The notes beneath the pieces were generated by a model that was given only the letters and a program-made list of their open reading frames with translations, was not told where the DNA came from and searched no databases. Made by a program: the position numbers and the translations under genes. A stretch of 64,000 nucleotides of DNA from Cytobacillus firmus (GTDB lineage Bacteria > Bacillota > Bacilli > Bacillales > Cytobacillaceae). The stretch covers positions 2,938,001-3,002,000 of the forward strand of contig NZ_CP098323.1 of NCBI RefSeq assembly GCF_023657595.1, written 5' to 3'. Below, one piece after another: positions 27,684 to 34,932 of this stretch; positions within the stretch are counted from its first letter, which is position 1; each line of letters starts with the position of its first letter.

Positions 27684-28049
27684 TCAGCCTTGCTGCAATG
27701 AATTCCAATAGGCTTTAGCTTCCGCTTCCAAAACTTTTAATCTCTTATAATAGTCAGGAAACTCGTTAAGATGTGCCAGTGCAATTTTCCCTGTAAGAAG
27801 CGGATCATCTCCAGTAACATTAGTCTCCCTTGATCGTTTTCCATGTTCCAGTTCTGTATTGACACCCATCCAGAATTCATTCAAATCAAACTGTGTTTTC
27901 GTAAAATCGATTCCCAATAGCAGTGCAATGGCTGCGGCCTCTTCTTTGGAAAATCCTTCCATTTGTCTGCTGGTATTTGGAAAAGACTGATGATTCACAT
28001 GTCCTCTGCCTAAGTGATACCCGTAAGGATTATAAGAGTAATACAACAA
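27684..28049 (-). CDS. DUF5661 family hypothetical protein
   Basis: The 121-residue product has a Tyr/Gly-rich N-terminus (YSYNPYGYHLGRGH) and a conserved core: FSKEEAAAIALLLGIDF, GVNTELEHGKRSRETNVT, DPLLTGKIALAHLNEFPDYY. Function is unknown. The start is one of two consecutive TTG codons behind GAGGTG. It is on the strand of the ars operon but separated from it by a terminator, so it is probably independent. Confidence 0.72.
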   Translation of the reverse strand: MLYYSYNPYGYHLGRGHVNHQSFPNTSRQMEGFSKEEAAAIALLLGIDFTKTQFDLNEFWMGVNTELEHGKRSRETNVTGDDPLLTGKIALAHLNEFPDYYKRLKVLEAEAKAYWNSLQQG

Positions 28050-28123
28050 CTTTCACCTCTCATTGCCAGATACCATAATGTATGTGAATGATTTTTTTAG
28101 GAGCATGGACTTGAACAAAATTA

Positions 28124-28145
28124 AAAAGGGCCCAAAAGGCCCTTT
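28124..28145 (-). terminator. Terminator of the ars-HesB operon
   Basis: AAAGGGCC / GGCCCTTT around CAAAA starts 2 nt beyond the HesB-like stop codon and is followed by TTTTTAA on the minus strand. Confidence 0.85.
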
Positions 28146-28146
28146 C

Positions 28147-28425
28147 CTAACAGCATCTTCCTGTATTACCGATCATCGAGATCCCGCTTCCGTTACCGCT
28201 CCGCTCTAAAACAAGATCTTCGGTGTTTGGTTCAATAATCGGGTCGATTGCTACTTTGATTTCATTGATTGTGACAATAATATCATCTGCTTCCGGCTCA
28301 TCCAGAGCCAGTCCTATTCTTGGCTGTCCTCAGCCATAGCCTTCAAAAAAGATGCGGACGCTGCCGGCATTTTGTTCTTCCAGCATTTTTCTTAATTCAT
28401 CACGCGCATTGTCTGTGATTTTCAT
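28147..28425 (-). CDS. HesB-like selenoprotein with in-frame UGA (TIGR01911 type)
   Basis: ATG at 28425 follows AAGGGGG by 7 nt. The 93-codon frame runs to TAG at 28147 with one internal TGA at 28332-28330 (codon 32), inside FFEGYG-U-GQPRIGLALDEP. In HesB-like relatives this position is a conserved Cys that binds iron or iron-sulfur. The end NTGRCC is also typical. From 19 nt after the UGA, CUGGCUC pairs with GAGCCGG over 7 bp around UGGAU, so the G-containing loop lies 26-30 nt from the UGA as in bacterial SECIS elements. Reading past UGA as selenocysteine is the best explanation; a nonsense mutation is the alternative. It is 37 bp after arsC. Confidence 0.8.
28293..28311 (-). promoter_or_regulatory. 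Putative bacterial SECIS hairpin
   Basis: Minus-strand arms CUGGCUC (28311-28305) and GAGCCGG (28299-28293) with loop UGGAU lie inside the HesB-like coding sequence just after the UGA. Loop distance and the G residues fit the bacterial SECIS consensus; SelB recognition is inferred. Confidence 0.6.
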
Positions 28426-28462: not shown

Positions 28463-28882
28463 TTACTTTCCTGTTTCGGCAAATGTTTTAATCCGAGCGC
28501 CGATTTCATCCCGTACACGCTGAAAGAAAGCCCATTTTTCTTCTTCTGTTCCTTCTGCTTTCGCAGGGTCATCAAATCCCCAATGCTCGCGTTTTACATG
28601 TGGAGGTGTCATCGGGCATTTATCAGCTGCATCGCCGCAAAGTGTGACAACCAAATCGGCATTATTGAGGATTTCAGGATCAATGATATCAGAAGTCTGT
28701 TTGGAGATGTCAATCCCAGCTTCCTTCATTGCTTTTACAGCGTTCGGATTCAAGCCATGTGCTTCAATCCCTGCACTATAAACATTCCATTCTTCACCTA
28801 AATGCTGTTTTGCCCATCCTTCTGCCATCTGGCTGCGGCATGAGTTGCCTGTGCATAGAAAGTAGATCGTTTTTTTAGTCAT
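28463..28882 (-). CDS. arsC: Arsenate reductase, thioredoxin-coupled
   Basis: The 139-residue enzyme has the LMW phosphatase-type loop CTGNSCRS (Cys10 nucleophile) and the redox pair Cys82 and Cys89 in [11 protein letters not shown], characteristic of the Staphylococcus/Bacillus ArsC class. It reduces arsenate to arsenite in the cytosol, using thioredoxin. It follows arsB by 16 bp and precedes the HesB-like selenoprotein. Confidence 0.95.
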
Positions 28883-28898: not shown

Positions 28899-30194
28899 TT
28901 AGATAATCATTAGCCAAATGTACAATCCGGTTAATGTGATAAACAGTGTTGGGACCGTTAGTATGATCCCTGTTTTAAAGTACGTTCCCCATGAGATTTT
29001 AACTCCCTTCAGGGACAATACATGAAGCCACAGCAAAGTTGCGAGGGATCCAATCGGCGTGATCTTCGGGCCTAAATCCGATCCAATCACGTTCGCATAG
29101 ATAAGGGCTTCACGGATGATTCCGCTTGTATCGGTTTCAGCAATGGCCAAAGCGTCAATCATAACGGTTGGCATATTGTTCATGACAGAAGAAAGGATGG
29201 CTGCAATGAATCCCATTCCGATTGTTGCTGCAAATAGTCCCTGGTCAGCTGTCATTTGAATTAAATCTTCCAAAACATTTGTAAGACCAGCGTTTCTAAG
29301 TCCGTAAACCACTACATACATGCCAATCGAAAAGAATACGATAGCCCAAGGTGCACCCTTGATGACCGTGCGCGTATTCACGGCTGGGCTTCTCCGCGCC
29401 ATGATCAGAAAGAACAACGTTACAATGCCTGCGATGAATGAGACTGGGACACCAATCCACTCACTGGCAAAATAGCCTATTAATAAGATTCCTAAAACAA
29501 GCCAGGACAATCGGAACATTTTGCTGTCTTTAACTGCTTCTGCTGGTTTTTTCAAATGAGATAAATCATAATTCTTTGGTATGCTTTTTCTAAAGTATAA
29601 GAATAAAACCAAAATGCTGGCACCCAGTGAAAAGAAGTTCGGAATAATCATGCGGGACGCATATTCCACAAAGCCGATGCCAAAAAAATCAGCGGAAACG
29701 ATGTTGACCAGGTTGCTGACAACCAATGGCAAAGACGTTGTATCTGCAATAAATCCACTTGCGATAATAAACGGAAAAACCAATTTTTCTTCAAATTGAA
29801 GGTTTCTCACCATCGCAAGGACAATTGGCGTGAGAATGAGTGCCGCTCCATCATTCGCAAAGAATGCTGCGACAACCGCTCCCAAAATGGAAACATAAAT
29901 GAACATCTTCACTCCGCTGCCCTTAGCCGCTCTTGCCATATGTAAAGCGGCCCATTCGAAAAACCCGATTTCATCTAAAATCAGCGATATAATGATGATG
30001 GCAATAAAGGTTAATGTGGCATTCCAGACAATGGATGTAACATCTATAACATCATTGAAATCCACCACACCGGCTATTAAAGCGAGGATAGCTCCGCCGC
30101 ATGCGGACCAGCCGATGGACAGACCTTTTGGCTGCCAAATGACTAATATGAGGGTGACCAAGAAAATCACCGAAGCTAAAATTATTTGAGTCAA
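28899..30194 (-). CDS. arsB: Arsenite efflux membrane protein ArsB
   Basis: 431 residues with about 11-12 membrane helices of the ArsB/NhaD ion transporter superfamily. Conserved segments are [24 protein letters not shown] (about 113-136), [24 protein letters not shown] (about 152-175) and [12 protein letters not shown] (about 344-355). It extrudes arsenite, which ArsC produces. It is 14 bp after arsR in the operon. Confidence 0.95.
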
Positions 30195-30208: not shown

Positions 30209-30553
30209 TTACTCACAGGAACTTCGCAATCCCTGCTCTTCCAATTCTGTTAATAAACAATCCTGGCTTGGAAGGTGATCAAGCACATTCTGAACCAGCG
30301 GGTAATAGTCACTTTCCTGATTCAATGAATAAATAATCCACTGACCCCTCCTGTTTTCCCTGACCACACCTGCATCTTTTAGTTTCCGAAGATGCTGGCT
30401 AATGGCTGGCTGGCTCATTTTAAAAATCTCCACAAATTCACATACACAGCAATCATGGTTATTTAATAGCTTCACCATTGTGAGCCGTGTTTTATCGCCT
30501 AATAATTTTAAAATGGATGCTGCCTTGCCGATTTCGACTGTGGATTCTATCAT
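30209..30553 (-). CDS. arsR: Arsenic-responsive repressor ArsR
   Basis: The 114-residue protein has a winged helix with the As(III)-binding motif DCCVCEF (about 33-39) directly before the recognition helix [14 protein letters not shown]. Cys residues near the C-terminus (DCLL, SSCE) may add ligands. Arsenite binding releases it from DNA. ATG at 30553 has GGAGGTG 8 nt upstream; the longer start at 30577 has no site. A perfect 20-bp palindrome lies just upstream. Confidence 0.93.
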
Positions 30554-30593
30554 GATCTCATCACCTCCGCTTTGCACATATTAATATATAATG

Positions 30594-30613
30594 ATTTGCT
30601 TATATAAGCAAAT
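30594..30613. promoter_or_regulatory. ArsR operator, perfect 20-bp palindrome
   Basis: ATTTGCTTATATAAGCAAAT is its own reverse complement and sits 41 bp upstream of arsR. AT-rich dyads in this position are the usual binding sites of ArsR in Firmicutes. Confidence 0.75.
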
Positions 30614-30993: not shown

Positions 30994-31491
30994 TTAAAGG
31001 AGTTTTTCCATAGCCATCACATCAACAAATTCTCCATCCAAAACACCCTGATTTTGAAATATGCCAACTTCGCGATACCCCATTTTTTTATAGAGTCCCT
31101 GTCCCAGGCCATTAAACGGAAAAGTAAACAAAACCAGCTTATGGAACTTGTTTTCTCTTGCTTTCTTTTCGAGGGCAGAAAGCAGCTTCCCGCCTGCCCC
31201 TTTGCCTCTGAATTCCCTGGAAATATAGACTGAGATATCTGCCACTCCATTATAAGCACAGCGGTTACTGTACCGATTCAGAGAAGCCCAGCCGATTACT
31301 TGACCCCCTTTTTCTGCGGCAAGCACACTAAATCGTCCCTGATGCTGGTCAAACCAGTCTGCCATATAGGAAAGATCTTTTTCCTCTGTTTCCAATGTAG
31401 CAATGCGGTCTTTTATTCCCTGATTATAAATCTCCATAATCTCTTCCAAATCTGTCTTCTTCGCTAAACGAACAACAGTCTCCCTGATCAT
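30994..31491 (-). CDS. GNAT acetyltransferase, ArsN1/phosphinothricin-acetyltransferase-like
   Basis: About 165 residues with a GNAT fold. It shows VRLAKKTDLEEIMEIYNQGI (N-terminus), LNRYSNRCAYNGVADISVYI (about 82-101), the acetyl-CoA motif RGKGAGGKLL and LYKKMGYREVGIF. This resembles Bacillus proteins annotated as arsinothricin-resistance acetyltransferase ArsN1. Such enzymes acetylate the amino group of phosphinothricin-like amino acids. ATG at 31491 has GCGGGG 7 nt upstream. It is the last gene of the MarR-controlled run, next to the ars operon. Substrate is inference. Confidence 0.82.
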   Translation of the reverse strand: MIRETVVRLAKKTDLEEIMEIYNQGIKDRIATLETEEKDLSYMADWFDQHQGRFSVLAAEKGGQVIGWASLNRYSNRCAYNGVADISVYISREFRGKGAGGKLLSALEKKARENKFHKLVLFTFPFNGLGQGLYKKMGYREVGIFQNQGVLDGEFVDVMAMEKLL

Positions 31492-31504
31492 TGCAGTTCC
31501 CCCG

Positions 31505-32752
31505 CTAATAAGATTCACAAATCTCTTTTTTTATGAAAGTGTTTAACCTCTTGGCTAAAACTGTCCAAATCGCAGCTAAAATAAGCAGTATGAACGAACC
31601 GCTCCAATATAAAAATGTAAAACCAGCTTCTAATTGGATTACTATGTAACTAATTGAAGGTCCTAAAGCTGCCCCTACATCTTGAAAGATGGTGTATACC
31701 GTAAGGAAAGAAACCACGTTTGCAGTTTTTGCTGTGTCCAGGGCAATTGTATCCAGAATGGTTGATAAAATAGTAGCACCGGCCATCACTAAAAGAGTAA
31801 CTGCTATCCAAAGCCATAATGGAAGTTTAGCAGATACCAAGCCAAAGACACCCCCTGCAAAAATCAGCGAAACAATAAAAATCGGCAGCCTCCCCGGCGC
31901 CCCATCAGACCAGTGCCCCACTGTTTTCCCCAGAAAGGGTTCCCATGTCCACCTTACCGCTTGGATTAGGCCAGATAAAAAAGTAACACTGACAACCACA
32001 TTCCATATTGATATACTCTCTCCGTAAAAATGTTCAATCAAGGAGCTCATTGTGGATGTCACTATTCCCTGATATAGCATGGCAAGGAGAAAGCCTGATA
32101 CAATAATCGCTGCTTTATATGCTGTCCTGCCAATGAAAGGCTTCTCTTCAGCCATTGTATCAATCTTTCCGGGTGTCTCCTCAACTTGATTAATTTTAGA
32201 ACTCAGCATTAGAGGAAGCCCCAACAGGGACAATAATCCAAATGCAATTGAAACCGTACTCAAGCCTATAATCGGAACGAGCAAGCCCCCAACCAGCATT
32301 CCGACCAGGCTTCCTGTACGGTAGAGCCCGTTATATAAACCCATAGAACTTCCACGCTTATTGTTTTCTGCATAAACAGCAACAACCGACAATCCTCCTA
32401 TCCGAAAAAATGACCAGGCAATTCCCCATAAAGCACGGAGGATTACCCAGGCCGCAAATCCTTCGAAAACACCATATCCTATCGTTGTGAATCCGCCTAA
32501 CAGGACAGCAATGATCAGGCCGGCCTTTAATGAAAGGTGTTTATATATCCAGCCTGCAATTGGATTAAAAGGCAATCGTATGAAACGGTTTATGGAAAGG
32601 AGCACACCCACTTGCCAAATAGATTCAAGCCCAGCAGTTTCCCAATAAATAGGCAAGGCAATATACAGCATGGAATCACCTAAGAGACTTAATGCTGTGA
32701 CGAAGGCGACTATTATAATTGGCTGTGAAGATAAGTGATTTTTAATAGTCAC
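31505..32752 (-). CDS. MFS efflux transporter
   Basis: The 415-residue protein has 12 predicted helices in two halves. A motif-A-like NRFIRLPFNPIAGWIYKHLSLKAG lies between helices 2 and 3 and a loop of about 20 charged residues divides the halves (about 195-215). It starts 22 bp after the small-protein gene and ends 13 bp before the acetyltransferase, which suggests it exports the acetylated or oxidised product. No family-specific substrate motif is visible. Confidence 0.9.
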   Translation of the reverse strand: MTIKNHLSSQPIIIVAFVTALSLLGDSMLYIALPIYWETAGLESIWQVGVLLSINRFIRLPFNPIAGWIYKHLSLKAGLIIAVLLGGFTTIGYGVFEGFAAWVILRALWGIAWSFFRIGGLSVVAVYAENNKRGSSMGLYNGLYRTGSLVGMLVGGLLVPIIGLSTVSIAFGLLSLLGLPLMLSSKINQVEETPGKIDTMAEEKPFIGRTAYKAAIIVSGFLLAMLYQGIVTSTMSSLIEHFYGESISIWNVVVSVTFLSGLIQAVRWTWEPFLGKTVGHWSDGAPGRLPIFIVSLIFAGGVFGLVSAKLPLWLWIAVTLLVMAGATILSTILDTIALDTAKTANVVSFLTVYTIFQDVGAALGPSISYIVIQLEAGFTFLYWSGSFILLILAAIWTVLAKRLNTFIKKEICESY

Positions 32753-32774
32753 CAGGATTCATCCTCTCCGGTTA

Positions 32775-32990
32775 TTAAAATTTATCATTCGAATGTTTAA
32801 TTAAATCCCGATAAGCCAAAATAAATTGTTCATACGTTTCCTGCCCCATTTCAATCTCCTGCAATCGAAACAGCCTTTCAAACGTTTTATCTTTTGCTTC
32901 CTCAACAGAACATCCGAAAGCATTCATAATTAATTTCATATAGGAAATAAAATATTCTTTCTTGAGTGCTCCGGCATGATTTATGGTCAT
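32775..32990 (-). CDS. Small hypothetical protein (71 aa) in the detoxification operon
   Basis: ATG at 32990 is 6 nt after AAAAGGTG. The protein is soluble and helical (INHAGALKKEYFISYMKLIM, CSVEEAKDKTFERLF, ETYEQFILAYRDL) with one Cys. I do not recognise it. Its place between flavoprotein and exporter genes, with gaps of about 40 and 22 bp, makes it part of the operon. Roles as a small carrier or regulator are only possibilities. Confidence 0.65.
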   Translation of the reverse strand: MTINHAGALKKEYFISYMKLIMNAFGCSVEEAKDKTFERLFRLQEIEMGQETYEQFILAYRDLIKHSNDKF

Positions 32991-33029
32991 TATAATCACC
33001 TTTTCAATTACATTTTAAGGAGCAGCGAA

Positions 33030-34406
33030 TCAATTACAGCAGGATGATGCAGACTCTTCAAAGGAACTTTTAAAATTAACGCTGCATACACCAGTTTCCG
33101 GCAGATCCAGCTCCACTTTTTCTGCAGCAGCGATATCACCGCTTAGATAAGCTGCCACTGACCTAACCTGCTCATAGCCTGTCGCCATCAAGAAGGTTGG
33201 AGCACGGCCATAACTTTTTGAACCCACAATATAAAAATTTCTCTCAGGCTGTCTTAATTCTTTTTCTCCATGGGGACGAACCGTACCGCAGCTATGAATA
33301 TTAGGATCAATTAATGGTGCCAATGCATCTGCACTTTCAGTTGCAGAATCGATGGAAGTACGAAGTTCACTTATGATAGAAAAATCCGGGCGGTTTCCTG
33401 TATTGACAATCATTTCATCGATTCCATACAGGCTTCTCATATTCCCGTTTTGGCTGCCTATTAACTCGATCCCCTTTTCCGTCGACTCTTTGACCAGCTG
33501 GATACGAAATGGGGTAACGGCCTTCACTTGCCCTTTATCGACCAATTGATGGATTCTGCTTCCGAGGCGCCCGCGTGCTGCAAGTGCATCTTTTTCTTCT
33601 CCTCCGTAAGCATCCTCAACCTGATTTCTTCTCATAATCCATAAAATCTCCGTTTCGGGATAAGACTCTTTCAAATCAGCTAAATCCAGCAAGGCATTAA
33701 TCGCTGAATGACCTCCGCCGACAACTGCAACTCGCTTATTCCGATAGCGCTGCTGCTCACTCCCTAATACATCGGGTATTCCATAAAATATCTTTTCCTT
33801 CAGTTCCTTCTCATCAGCCAGCCAAATTCCGCTTGATGAAGCCGGATTTGGATTACCCCAGGTACCTGCAGCATCAATTACTGCTCTCGATTCGAATGTT
33901 TTGTACTCTCCATTCTGCTCAGCATGGATAACAAAGGGACTGTTTTCCCGGTTTGCGGTTTTCATTTTATCGGTGTCTTTTCTGCCAACTGATAAAACTT
34001 TCGTATTAAGGTGAATGAAAGGCTTTATTTCAGGTAAGCTGGACAGCGGCTTTAGATAGTGTTCAACAAGTTCCTCTCCGGTAGGCAAAGCTTCCAATTG
34101 CGGCTGTACCCAGCCATTTGCGCTTAATAAACTGGCTGCAGCTTTATCAATATTGTATCGCCATGGTGAGAATAACCGAACATGTCCCCAGGTTTTAATA
34201 TTGGCTCCCGCTTGCTTGCCCGCTTCGAGCAAAATAAATGATTGCCCCCTGCTTGCCAGGTGTGCAGCAGCTGCCAGCCCAACAGGTCCGGCGCCAATTA
34301 TTGCTACAGGCAGCGCTTCAGCTTTCCCCTTGCTTTGTGAATTCTTTTCTAATTCGTTTTTCTTAGATGTGCAGCATCCTTTTACAAGATCATTTTGGTT
34401 AGTCAT
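33030..34406 (-). CDS. FAD/NAD(P)-binding flavoprotein with Cys-rich termini
   Basis: About 458 residues. The N-terminal GAGPVGLAAAAHLASRG binds FAD and the central VAVVGGGHSAINALLDLA binds NAD(P), the two-dinucleotide layout of flavin monooxygenases and reductases. AGTWGNPNPAS and YGRAPTFLMATGYEQVRS are conserved-looking. Both ends carry Cys pairs: GCC near residue 11 and SSCCN at the very end. Such pairs could bind As(III) or take part in thiol exchange. It is the first gene after the palindrome at 34446. ArsO-like monooxygenases occur in ars operons, but assignment is inference. Confidence 0.82.
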   Translation of the reverse strand: MTNQNDLVKGCCTSKKNELEKNSQSKGKAEALPVAIIGAGPVGLAAAAHLASRGQSFILLEAGKQAGANIKTWGHVRLFSPWRYNIDKAAASLLSANGWVQPQLEALPTGEELVEHYLKPLSSLPEIKPFIHLNTKVLSVGRKDTDKMKTANRENSPFVIHAEQNGEYKTFESRAVIDAAGTWGNPNPASSSGIWLADEKELKEKIFYGIPDVLGSEQQRYRNKRVAVVGGGHSAINALLDLADLKESYPETEILWIMRRNQVEDAYGGEEKDALAARGRLGSRIHQLVDKGQVKAVTPFRIQLVKESTEKGIELIGSQNGNMRSLYGIDEMIVNTGNRPDFSIISELRTSIDSATESADALAPLIDPNIHSCGTVRPHGEKELRQPERNFYIVGSKSYGRAPTFLMATGYEQVRSVAAYLSGDIAAAEKVELDLPETGVCSVNFKSSFEESASSCCN

Positions 34407-34445
34407 GCTTTCTCCTCTTTTCTTCAGATTTAGGTTGATTGATTT

Positions 34446-34464
34446 TACTTGCAAAATGCAAGTA
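34446..34464. promoter_or_regulatory. MarR-type operator 1
   Basis: TACTTGCAAAATGCAAGTA is a perfect dyad with 8-bp arms and a 3-bp centre, 40 bp upstream of the flavoprotein gene and just after the MarR gene. Confidence 0.7.
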
Positions 34465-34482
34465 TTACATCCAGGGGAATTT

Positions 34483-34932
34483 TTACCCCTGAATTGGCTT
34501 ACAGCATGCATTGGACTTTGCCATCGCATTATTTAACAAATGAATTGAGCGGATGACTGTTTCTTTTTCAAACTCATTCATTTGTGAAAAAACTTCATGT
34601 AAAAATGCATTCATCTGCTGATCAATTGAACCTGCAATAAATCTGCCTTCAGCGGTAAGCGAAAGAATACTGATTCTCTTATCTTCAGGGTCCGGCGTTT
34701 TCTTAATTAAGTTCATTTTCACTAAAGATTGAACCTGCCTGCTGAAAGTTGTAATATCCGTCCCTAAGGTATCTGCAATCTGCTGCATGGACGGATAATG
34801 CTGATTGTCAATCTCATAAAGAATATGGCTTTGAATGAGGGAAATATCGCATCCGCCTACACTGCAGCAATTTTTATTGAGTAAGCCAAAACGGCGAGTC
34901 ATTACTTGAAACAAACTGCGAAGATTTTCCAT
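34483..34932 (-). CDS. MarR-family regulator with paired cysteines at both ends of the fold
   Basis: About 149 residues with a MarR winged helix: MQQIADTLGTDITTFSRQVQSLVKMNLI and the wing DPEDKRISILSLT. Unusual Cys clusters flank it: KNCCSVGGC (about 22-30) before the DNA-binding domain and NACCKP at the C-terminus. This suggests a thiol or metalloid sensor rather than an aromatic-ligand MarR (inference). ATG at 34932 follows AGAGGTG. Matching dyads lie in front of this gene and of the flavoprotein, so it likely autoregulates and controls the downstream operon. Confidence 0.85.
   Translation of the reverse strand: MENLRSLFQVMTRRFGLLNKNCCSVGGCDISLIQSHILYEIDNQHYPSMQQIADTLGTDITTFSRQVQSLVKMNLIKKTPDPEDKRISILSLTAEGRFIAGSIDQQMNAFLHEVFSQMNEFEKETVIRSIHLLNNAMAKSNACCKPIQG

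Follow-up and report, generated by a model that had tools for sequence, protein, structure and literature searches.

The last gene of an arsenic resistance (ars) operon in Cytobacillus firmus belongs, as judged from sequence comparison, to a HesB family accessory to ars operons, of which it is a form encoded with UGA; it lies below the curated limit of TIGR01911, and both its predicted use of selenium and its place in the operon are well supported. It was found in a window of 64,000 nucleotides (NZ_CP098323.1, positions 2,938,001 to 3,002,000; "the window" denotes this whole stretch), in which arsR, arsB, arsC and hesB(UGA) follow one another in this order on one strand, with 37 nt between arsC and hesB. 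The elements of the operon, in window coordinates, are the following.

28147..28425, minus strand: HesB/IscA-like gene of 92 codons plus TAG, predicted to be read as selenocysteine (Sec) at codon 32 (open reading frame, TIGR01911 score, comparison with 80 relatives, dN/dS)
28330..28332, minus strand: in-frame UGA, predicted Sec codon, residue 32 (conservation of the codon in relatives)
28293..28311, minus strand: SECIS-type hairpin, 7 bp, loop UGGAU (core invariant in 77 of 77 distinct genes; covariation with distant relatives)
28150..28155, minus strand: Cys91-Cys92 at the C-terminus (present in the majority of Sec and Cys forms, a few of which have one terminal Cys)
28463..28882, minus strand: arsC, thioredoxin-type arsenate reductase (TIGR02691, 242 bits, above cut-off)
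28899..30194, minus strand: arsB, arsenite efflux pump (TIGR00935, 755 bits, above cut-off)
30209..30577, minus strand: arsR, ArsR/SmtB repressor, start possibly the ATG at 30553 (NF033788, 94.9 bits, above cut-off)
30594..30613, no strand: 20-bp perfect palindrome ATTTGCTTATATAAGCAAAT located 5' of arsR (exact string search)
28123..28147, minus strand: terminator-like hairpin and T-run closing the operon (its first base is the last base of the hesB stop codon)

The reading frame begins with an ATG at 28425, preceded by the Shine-Dalgarno-like sequence AAAGGGGGAACAGGC, and ends with a TAG at 28149-28147, a single in-frame TGA standing as codon 32; its translation reads MKITD...GYGUGQP...NTGRCC. 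A preliminary description of this DNA had reported a 93-codon frame with one TGA, a good ribosome site, clean coding to NTGRCC followed by a terminator, and the last place in an ars operon. The frame stands, its length being 92 codons plus the TAG, and the ribosome site, the uninterrupted coding, the terminator hairpin (28147-28123) and the place behind arsR-arsB-arsC were all recovered. Cysteine occurs in the predicted protein only at positions 91 and 92, leaving Sec32, Cys91 and Cys92 as the sole residues of that chemistry.

The palindrome upstream of arsR is possibly the ArsR operator, a role that we infer for it; among four close relatives examined, the exact string was found in L025 and L026 and was absent from L027 and L030. 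Upstream of the operon, window positions 30994-34529 encode a GNAT-like protein, an MFS-like transporter and an FAD oxidoreductase, the last of which reached 54.8 bits against ArsO, far below the cut-off of 425. Genes like these adjoin ars operons in relatives, so that a larger arsenic island may be present. Directly past the operon terminator, a DUF5661 gene (63 bits; 27684-28049) was observed, which is also found in L025 and L027.

The genome, assembled as one contig of 4.98 Mb, harbors the complement of genes for which the preliminary description had proposed a search: selA (547 bits), selB (370 bits) and selD (425 bits) were all found above their cut-offs, together with a tRNA-Sec scoring 58 bits against a gathering score of 47. 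The selD gene itself (G000:C1:2206523-2207449; L021) is a predicted selenoprotein gene, with one in-frame UGA in the motif KGGUGCK. Relatives of the window gene were collected by a scan of genome contigs, which gave 100 loci, and the best 80 of these 100 were used. UGA was found at this codon in 78 of the 80, the two exceptions being L083, where the match begins past the codon, and L104, a frameshifted draft gene; such conservation argues against a sequencing error. That the TGA falls exactly where relatives carry a conserved Cys, as had been proposed, was borne out by seven near homologues and 13 plasmid homologues with Cys at this position. On the 3' side of the UGA, differences from nine relatives fell mostly on third positions (dN 0.007-0.217, dS 0.16-1.37), a contrast seen in frame and absent from the other two frames. 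Judged by these substitutions, the coding sequence beyond the UGA is under purifying selection.

The preliminary description had also pointed to a 7-bp hairpin with a G-containing loop 26-30 nt after the UGA, and this structure was located at 28311-28293 with the loop UGGAU, so that a SECIS-type hairpin just past the UGA, with a G in its loop, is present. Its core, GGCUCUGGAUGAGCC, was identical in 77 of 77 distinct genes, as was the core string GGCTCTGGATGAGCC; these 77 derive from 80 sequences (the window gene, its paralogue and 78 loci), L083 and L104 having been left out of the codon comparison. The hairpin codons GCT, CTG, GAT and GAG were used in all 77 genes, and elsewhere in the same genes they made up 29, 16, 62 and 23% of synonyms, respectively. 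Other conserved codons nearby do vary among the 77 genes, such as those for Gly and Pro right after the UGA. Folded alone, the hairpin reached -12.7 kcal/mol with a z of only -1.69, which makes folding energy by itself weak evidence. No Rfam family was found at its gathering score in four sources, including the window.

The hairpin is also present in relatives with UGA from other families of the phylum. From a distant set of 28 loci (L161-L188), two Cys forms and one sequence that has an additional residue were excluded, and L164, L167, L172 and L177 were dropped by the fixed offsets, leaving 21 lined up; the covariation set of 32 sequences joined 12 hand-picked genes of the 77 close ones to 20 of these 21 (L175, nearly the same as L174, was left out). 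In the distant relatives, G-C pairs give way to A-U and C-G pairs to U-A. Across the 32 sequences, paired cells amounted to 95.1% against 86.9% in shuffles, two-sided changes to 24 against 7.8, and the covariation score to 0.416 against 0.255, a value that none of 500 shuffles reached; when the hairpin was slid by 1-3 columns, the score did not exceed 0.172. The shuffles ignore relatedness and the slid controls preserve it. The number of pair types did not rise above the shuffles in the same 32 sequences (10 against 9.0, a value attained in 144 of the 500 shuffles), and the change in the fourth pair accompanies Ala to Thr and Pro to Ser replacements, so the covariation is not purely synonymous.

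It is therefore almost certain, as far as sequence comparison can tell, that the gene encodes a small selenoprotein of HesB/IscA fold whose UGA is read by means of a SECIS hairpin lying inside the coding sequence. That the UGA is instead a true stop or a sequencing error, leaving a pseudogene or a 31-residue peptide, has a negligible probability: Sec insertion is so far a prediction and the curated family cut-offs are missed, but the UGA common to 78 of 80 relatives, the purifying selection past it, the conserved and covarying hairpin and the Sec genes of the genome stand against it, and the codon conservation, dN/dS and hairpin led us to reject a pseudogene or sequencing error. A reading of UGA as Trp or Cys by another code was set aside because the Sec machinery and the SECIS element account for the codon.

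A second UGA-bearing HesB-like gene, 59% identical, was found in the same genome (G000:C1:1185943-1186218; L009:1510-1788). This paralogue has a hairpin and T-run right past its stop and is flanked by a SpoVR gene on one side and a rhodanese/CsoR-like cluster on the other, with no ars gene within 1.5 kb.

The distribution of UGA copies follows that of the Sec trait. Among 193 genomes of the family to which the window belongs, selA exceeded its cut-off in 172 and was missing from 21, of which 13 belong to genus g20, so that the 21 are not independent; two of the 21 do have a tRNA-Sec, in genomes only 80 and 81% complete. The best 150 protein-profile matches were spread over 108 genomes, all of them with selA, and none fell in the 21. 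One TGA was found in 149 of these 150 matches, and the remaining one (L125, in G010) carries TAA at that codon in a gene otherwise intact and with the hairpin string kept, which we read as a mutation or sequencing error. A separate search of the 21 selA-less genomes returned seven intact near relatives in seven genomes (L136-L142, 75.7-94.3 bits), all of which read Cys in a GCCGP motif and none of which has the hairpin string, as well as nine weaker matches (22.7-27.8 bits). In relatives without Sec machinery, the Cys form thus has GCCGP in place of GUG(Q/G)P. Genome G171 carries a UGA copy (L135) that lacks its N-terminus and has a conserved Gly changed, and shares with G175 a distant UGA homologue of 27.6 bits (L147 and L144, respectively); neither genome has selA over the cut-off or a tRNA-Sec, and their UGA copies are possibly decaying remnants, fossils of a lost Sec trait.

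The linkage to arsenic genes was followed on chromosomes, with a flank of up to 5 kb, and on plasmids. In 46 of the 80 loci (best 80 of 100), ars core genes lie upstream on the same strand, and the pump position of these 46 is held by ArsB in 33, Acr3 in eight and an aquaporin-like gene in four, one being undecided. The aquaporin-like gene stands where the arsenite pump would be in L031, L036, L038 and L040; its representative reached 163 bits against an NCBIfam cut-off of 171, and the Acr3, ArsD and ArsA groups, each judged by a single representative, exceeded theirs. The six commonest neighbour families over the 80 loci were ArsR-like (44), ArsC (41), ArsB (28), ArsA (26), ArsD (23) and dual-specificity-phosphatase-like (19). 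The last name was taken from plasmid annotation, NCBIfam giving nothing at 1e-10; the gene was seen in 19 of 80 loci (e.g., L050 from -459) and in many plasmid ars operons (e.g., L152:5530-5949). According to the available text of PMC4562236, orf8 of Bacillus sp. CDB3, likewise named a dual-specificity phosphatase, conferred arsenate resistance in E. coli.

The plasmid search found 19 places in 18 records, each record being viewed at its best place (the second place of H1 was left out), and ars genes lie beside the best match in 18 of 18. The UGA form is found in five records, from Cytobacillus, and the Cys form in 13, from Priestia, Paenibacillus, Planococcus, Niallia, Peribacillus, Alicyclobacillus and Bacillus arachidis. 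All 13 Cys relatives carry GCCGP, and the hairpin string is absent from the seven whose codons were printed. In the plasmid gene table, which describes itself as incomplete, no feature lies under the match in five of five UGA loci, and all 13 Cys copies are annotated, as adhesin or as iron-sulfur cluster biosynthesis family protein. Upstream of L162, a Cys copy on the chromosome of a bacterium from a different family of the order, arsA was likewise found. The gene thus stands repeatedly on the same strand behind ars core genes, and hesB(UGA) is very probably, by its genomic setting, accessory to the ars operon, its product presumably being made together with ArsR, ArsB and ArsC.

No ars gene was found upstream within the flank in 34 of the 80 loci, 13 of which follow a SpoVR gene, like the paralogue of this genome. 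Most of these loci keep the same Sec and Cys-Cys tail, which makes an arsenic-only job unlikely. In a tree of 91 proteins over 92 columns (L083, L104, L095 and L096 left out; 19 of 88 inner branches open; long Cys branches meeting; five Cys forms with no assigned place), the count came to at least 14 switches between an ars and a non-ars place and one between U and C, with no direction claimed. Copies outside ars operons carry the same residues, which suggests either a site of broader use that was taken over for arsenic or the opposite course.

As to family membership, the preliminary assignment to the HesB-like selenoproteins of TIGR01911 held for a UGA-encoded relative of HesB type and failed at the curated cut-off, since the window gene scored 48.8 bits (with C for U) against 66.35. 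In a DNA search, TIGR01911 gave 46 bits for the window gene and 47.8 for the paralogue, and Pfam PF01521 (Fe-S_biosyn) gave 20.6 against a gathering score of 26.3; with scores below the TIGR01911 and Pfam limits, the gene does not count as a member and is a divergent relative. The motif is UGQP in the window gene and UGGP in the paralogue, and UxGP is printed for HesB-like selenoproteins in the available text of PMC13188914. A structure model built from 53 sequences, with C for U, had a mean pLDDT of 91.7, the last two residues (67) being the least certain part. Its best solved matches were IscA entries, 1r94 (E 1.9e-05, TM 0.71) and 1s98 from E. coli (TM 0.72), followed by other IscA/SufA-type entries and, lower, by the PdhI/YneR model 9a4q (TM 0.57, E 4.9e-03). 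The predicted fold is hence IscA-like, and in a profile alignment Sec32 aligns with the first IscA cysteine.

IscA/SufA carriers have three conserved cysteines, the last two forming a CxC. The window protein shares with them the fold (TM 0.71-0.72 to IscA) and the place of the first ligand, but its relation in sequence is far (best PDB profile match of 28 bits), its first position is Sec32 and it ends in Cys-Cys-COOH in place of the C-terminal CxC. Elsewhere the genome has an ordinary gene of IscA/SufA-like type (L011), in which the usual GCG motif is found.

As(III) favours three soft ligands. From the IscA-like site, the three residues Sec32, Cys91 and Cys92 and the place in the operon, we infer that the protein most likely captures and relays arsenite; the main rival reading is Fe-S repair. 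Sec32 and the Cys91-Cys92 end would form a soft three-ligand site where IscA holds iron or an Fe-S cluster; this site would catch cytosolic As(III) and keep it or hand it over to the efflux pump, the capture would spare thiol and Fe-S targets, and selenium would bind arsenite more tightly or faster than sulfur. The claim that the protein catches As(III) through Sec32 and the Cys-Cys end, keeping it or relaying it to the pump, falls a little short of an even chance. The three-ligand idea is weakened by forms that do not end in Cys-Cys, namely four non-ars Sec forms (L093, L095, L096 and L103) and four of the 13 ars-linked plasmid Cys forms (L153, L154, L159 and L198). The narrower proposal of a selenium-dependent arsenite chaperone, in which As(III) held on one selenolate and two thiolates would be passed to ArsA/ArsB or Acr3, is tentative and on balance unlikely; if it were true, arsenic resistance would depend on selenium supply. 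Taken as a whole, the best explanation, which combines Sec insertion, an accessory role in the ars operon and arsenite binding, stands at about an even chance.

An A-type Fe-S carrier or repair factor, carrying iron or an Fe-S cluster like IscA and rebuilding clusters damaged by arsenite, in line with the protection of Fe-S assembly proposed in the preliminary description, is less probable and on balance unlikely. It would agree with the IscA fold and with a first ligand at the IscA position, and a place in the ars operon would time the protein to arsenite stress; however, the CxC end of IscA is replaced by a terminal Cys-Cys, the Pfam Fe-S_biosyn score lies below the gathering score, and the genome already has the ordinary GCG-motif gene (L011). 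Improbable to a further degree is a redox factor of selenol-thiol type that would act together with thioredoxin reductase, for example by reducing oxidised thiols of ArsC, of the phosphatase or of ArsD. A thioredoxin-reductase-like gene was found in eight of the 46 ars-linked loci and also in plasmid operons, and the available text of PMC13188914 regards many selenoproteins as likely redox proteins. Nevertheless, that gene is absent from most of the 46 loci and from the window operon, neither a CxxU nor a UxxC motif is present, and the Cys-Cys end is distant in sequence from Sec32.

Pyruvate dehydrogenase is an arsenite-sensitive enzyme, and a protein-binding regulator like B. subtilis PdhI/YneR, of which an ars version would slow this enzyme under stress, was considered as a very remote alternative. 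The available text of PMC10090944 describes pyruvate dehydrogenase as the known partner of PdhI/YneR, which blocks its E1 component via Tyr31; the PdhI model among the fold matches and an aromatic residue, found in 67 of 77 genes at the second position ahead of Sec, would fit, but such a role leaves Sec, the Cys-Cys end and the ars linkage unexplained.

ArsD, a proposed As(III) metallochaperone, is also encoded in ars operons; it is small and has a pair of adjacent cysteines, with another cysteine close to them. The HesB protein resembles it in being small, ars-encoded and endowed with adjacent cysteines, but belongs to an unrelated family; the two genes co-occur in many operons, so that hesB is no replacement for arsD.

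HesB-like selenoproteins are a known selenoprotein family, according to the available text of PMC1794560 and PMC13188914, which makes no mention of a link to ars operons. Like those covered by TIGR01911 and by NF038090 (IscA_HesB_Se), the window gene is of HesB/IscA type with Sec, but it scores below both curated cut-offs, has UGQP at the place of the printed UxGP, and its kind is often found in ars operons. HesB genes inside ars operons have likewise been described, as orf7 of ars1 in Bacillus sp. CDB3 (PMC4562236, available text; PMC5481582) and in Exiguobacterium (PMC8779447, available text). The CDB3 ars1 operon shares with the window type a HesB-like gene and, according to the same text, also has the adjoining dual-specificity phosphatase gene, and selenium is mentioned for neither the CDB3 nor the Exiguobacterium gene in what is available of these three sources. 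By analogy with the Bacillus arachidis plasmid copy, and not from its own sequence, CDB3 orf7 would be of the Cys type. Sec forms of other arsenic or metal proteins, namely arsenate reductase, arsenite methyltransferase and Sao proteins, are listed in the available text of PMC13188914; they belong to other families, none of HesB type, and a general tie between arsenic and selenium is thus not new. A literature search over titles and the beginnings of abstracts, in which few subscription journals were covered, returned no report joining Sec, HesB and ars, and so did not bring up a HesB-type selenoprotein as part of the core ars operon in many Bacillaceae.

No function is assigned to HesB-like selenoproteins in the literature consulted, and the ars operon gives this branch a concrete, testable substrate, in soil bacteria that can be cultured. 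The lack of a listed feature under the five UGA-type plasmid matches suggests that annotation passes over a conserved ars gene. The proposed role predicts that arsenite tolerance would rise with selenium supply, with the Cys forms as natural controls. If the UGA is read as Sec, arsenic defence would be tied to selenium in many related bacteria.
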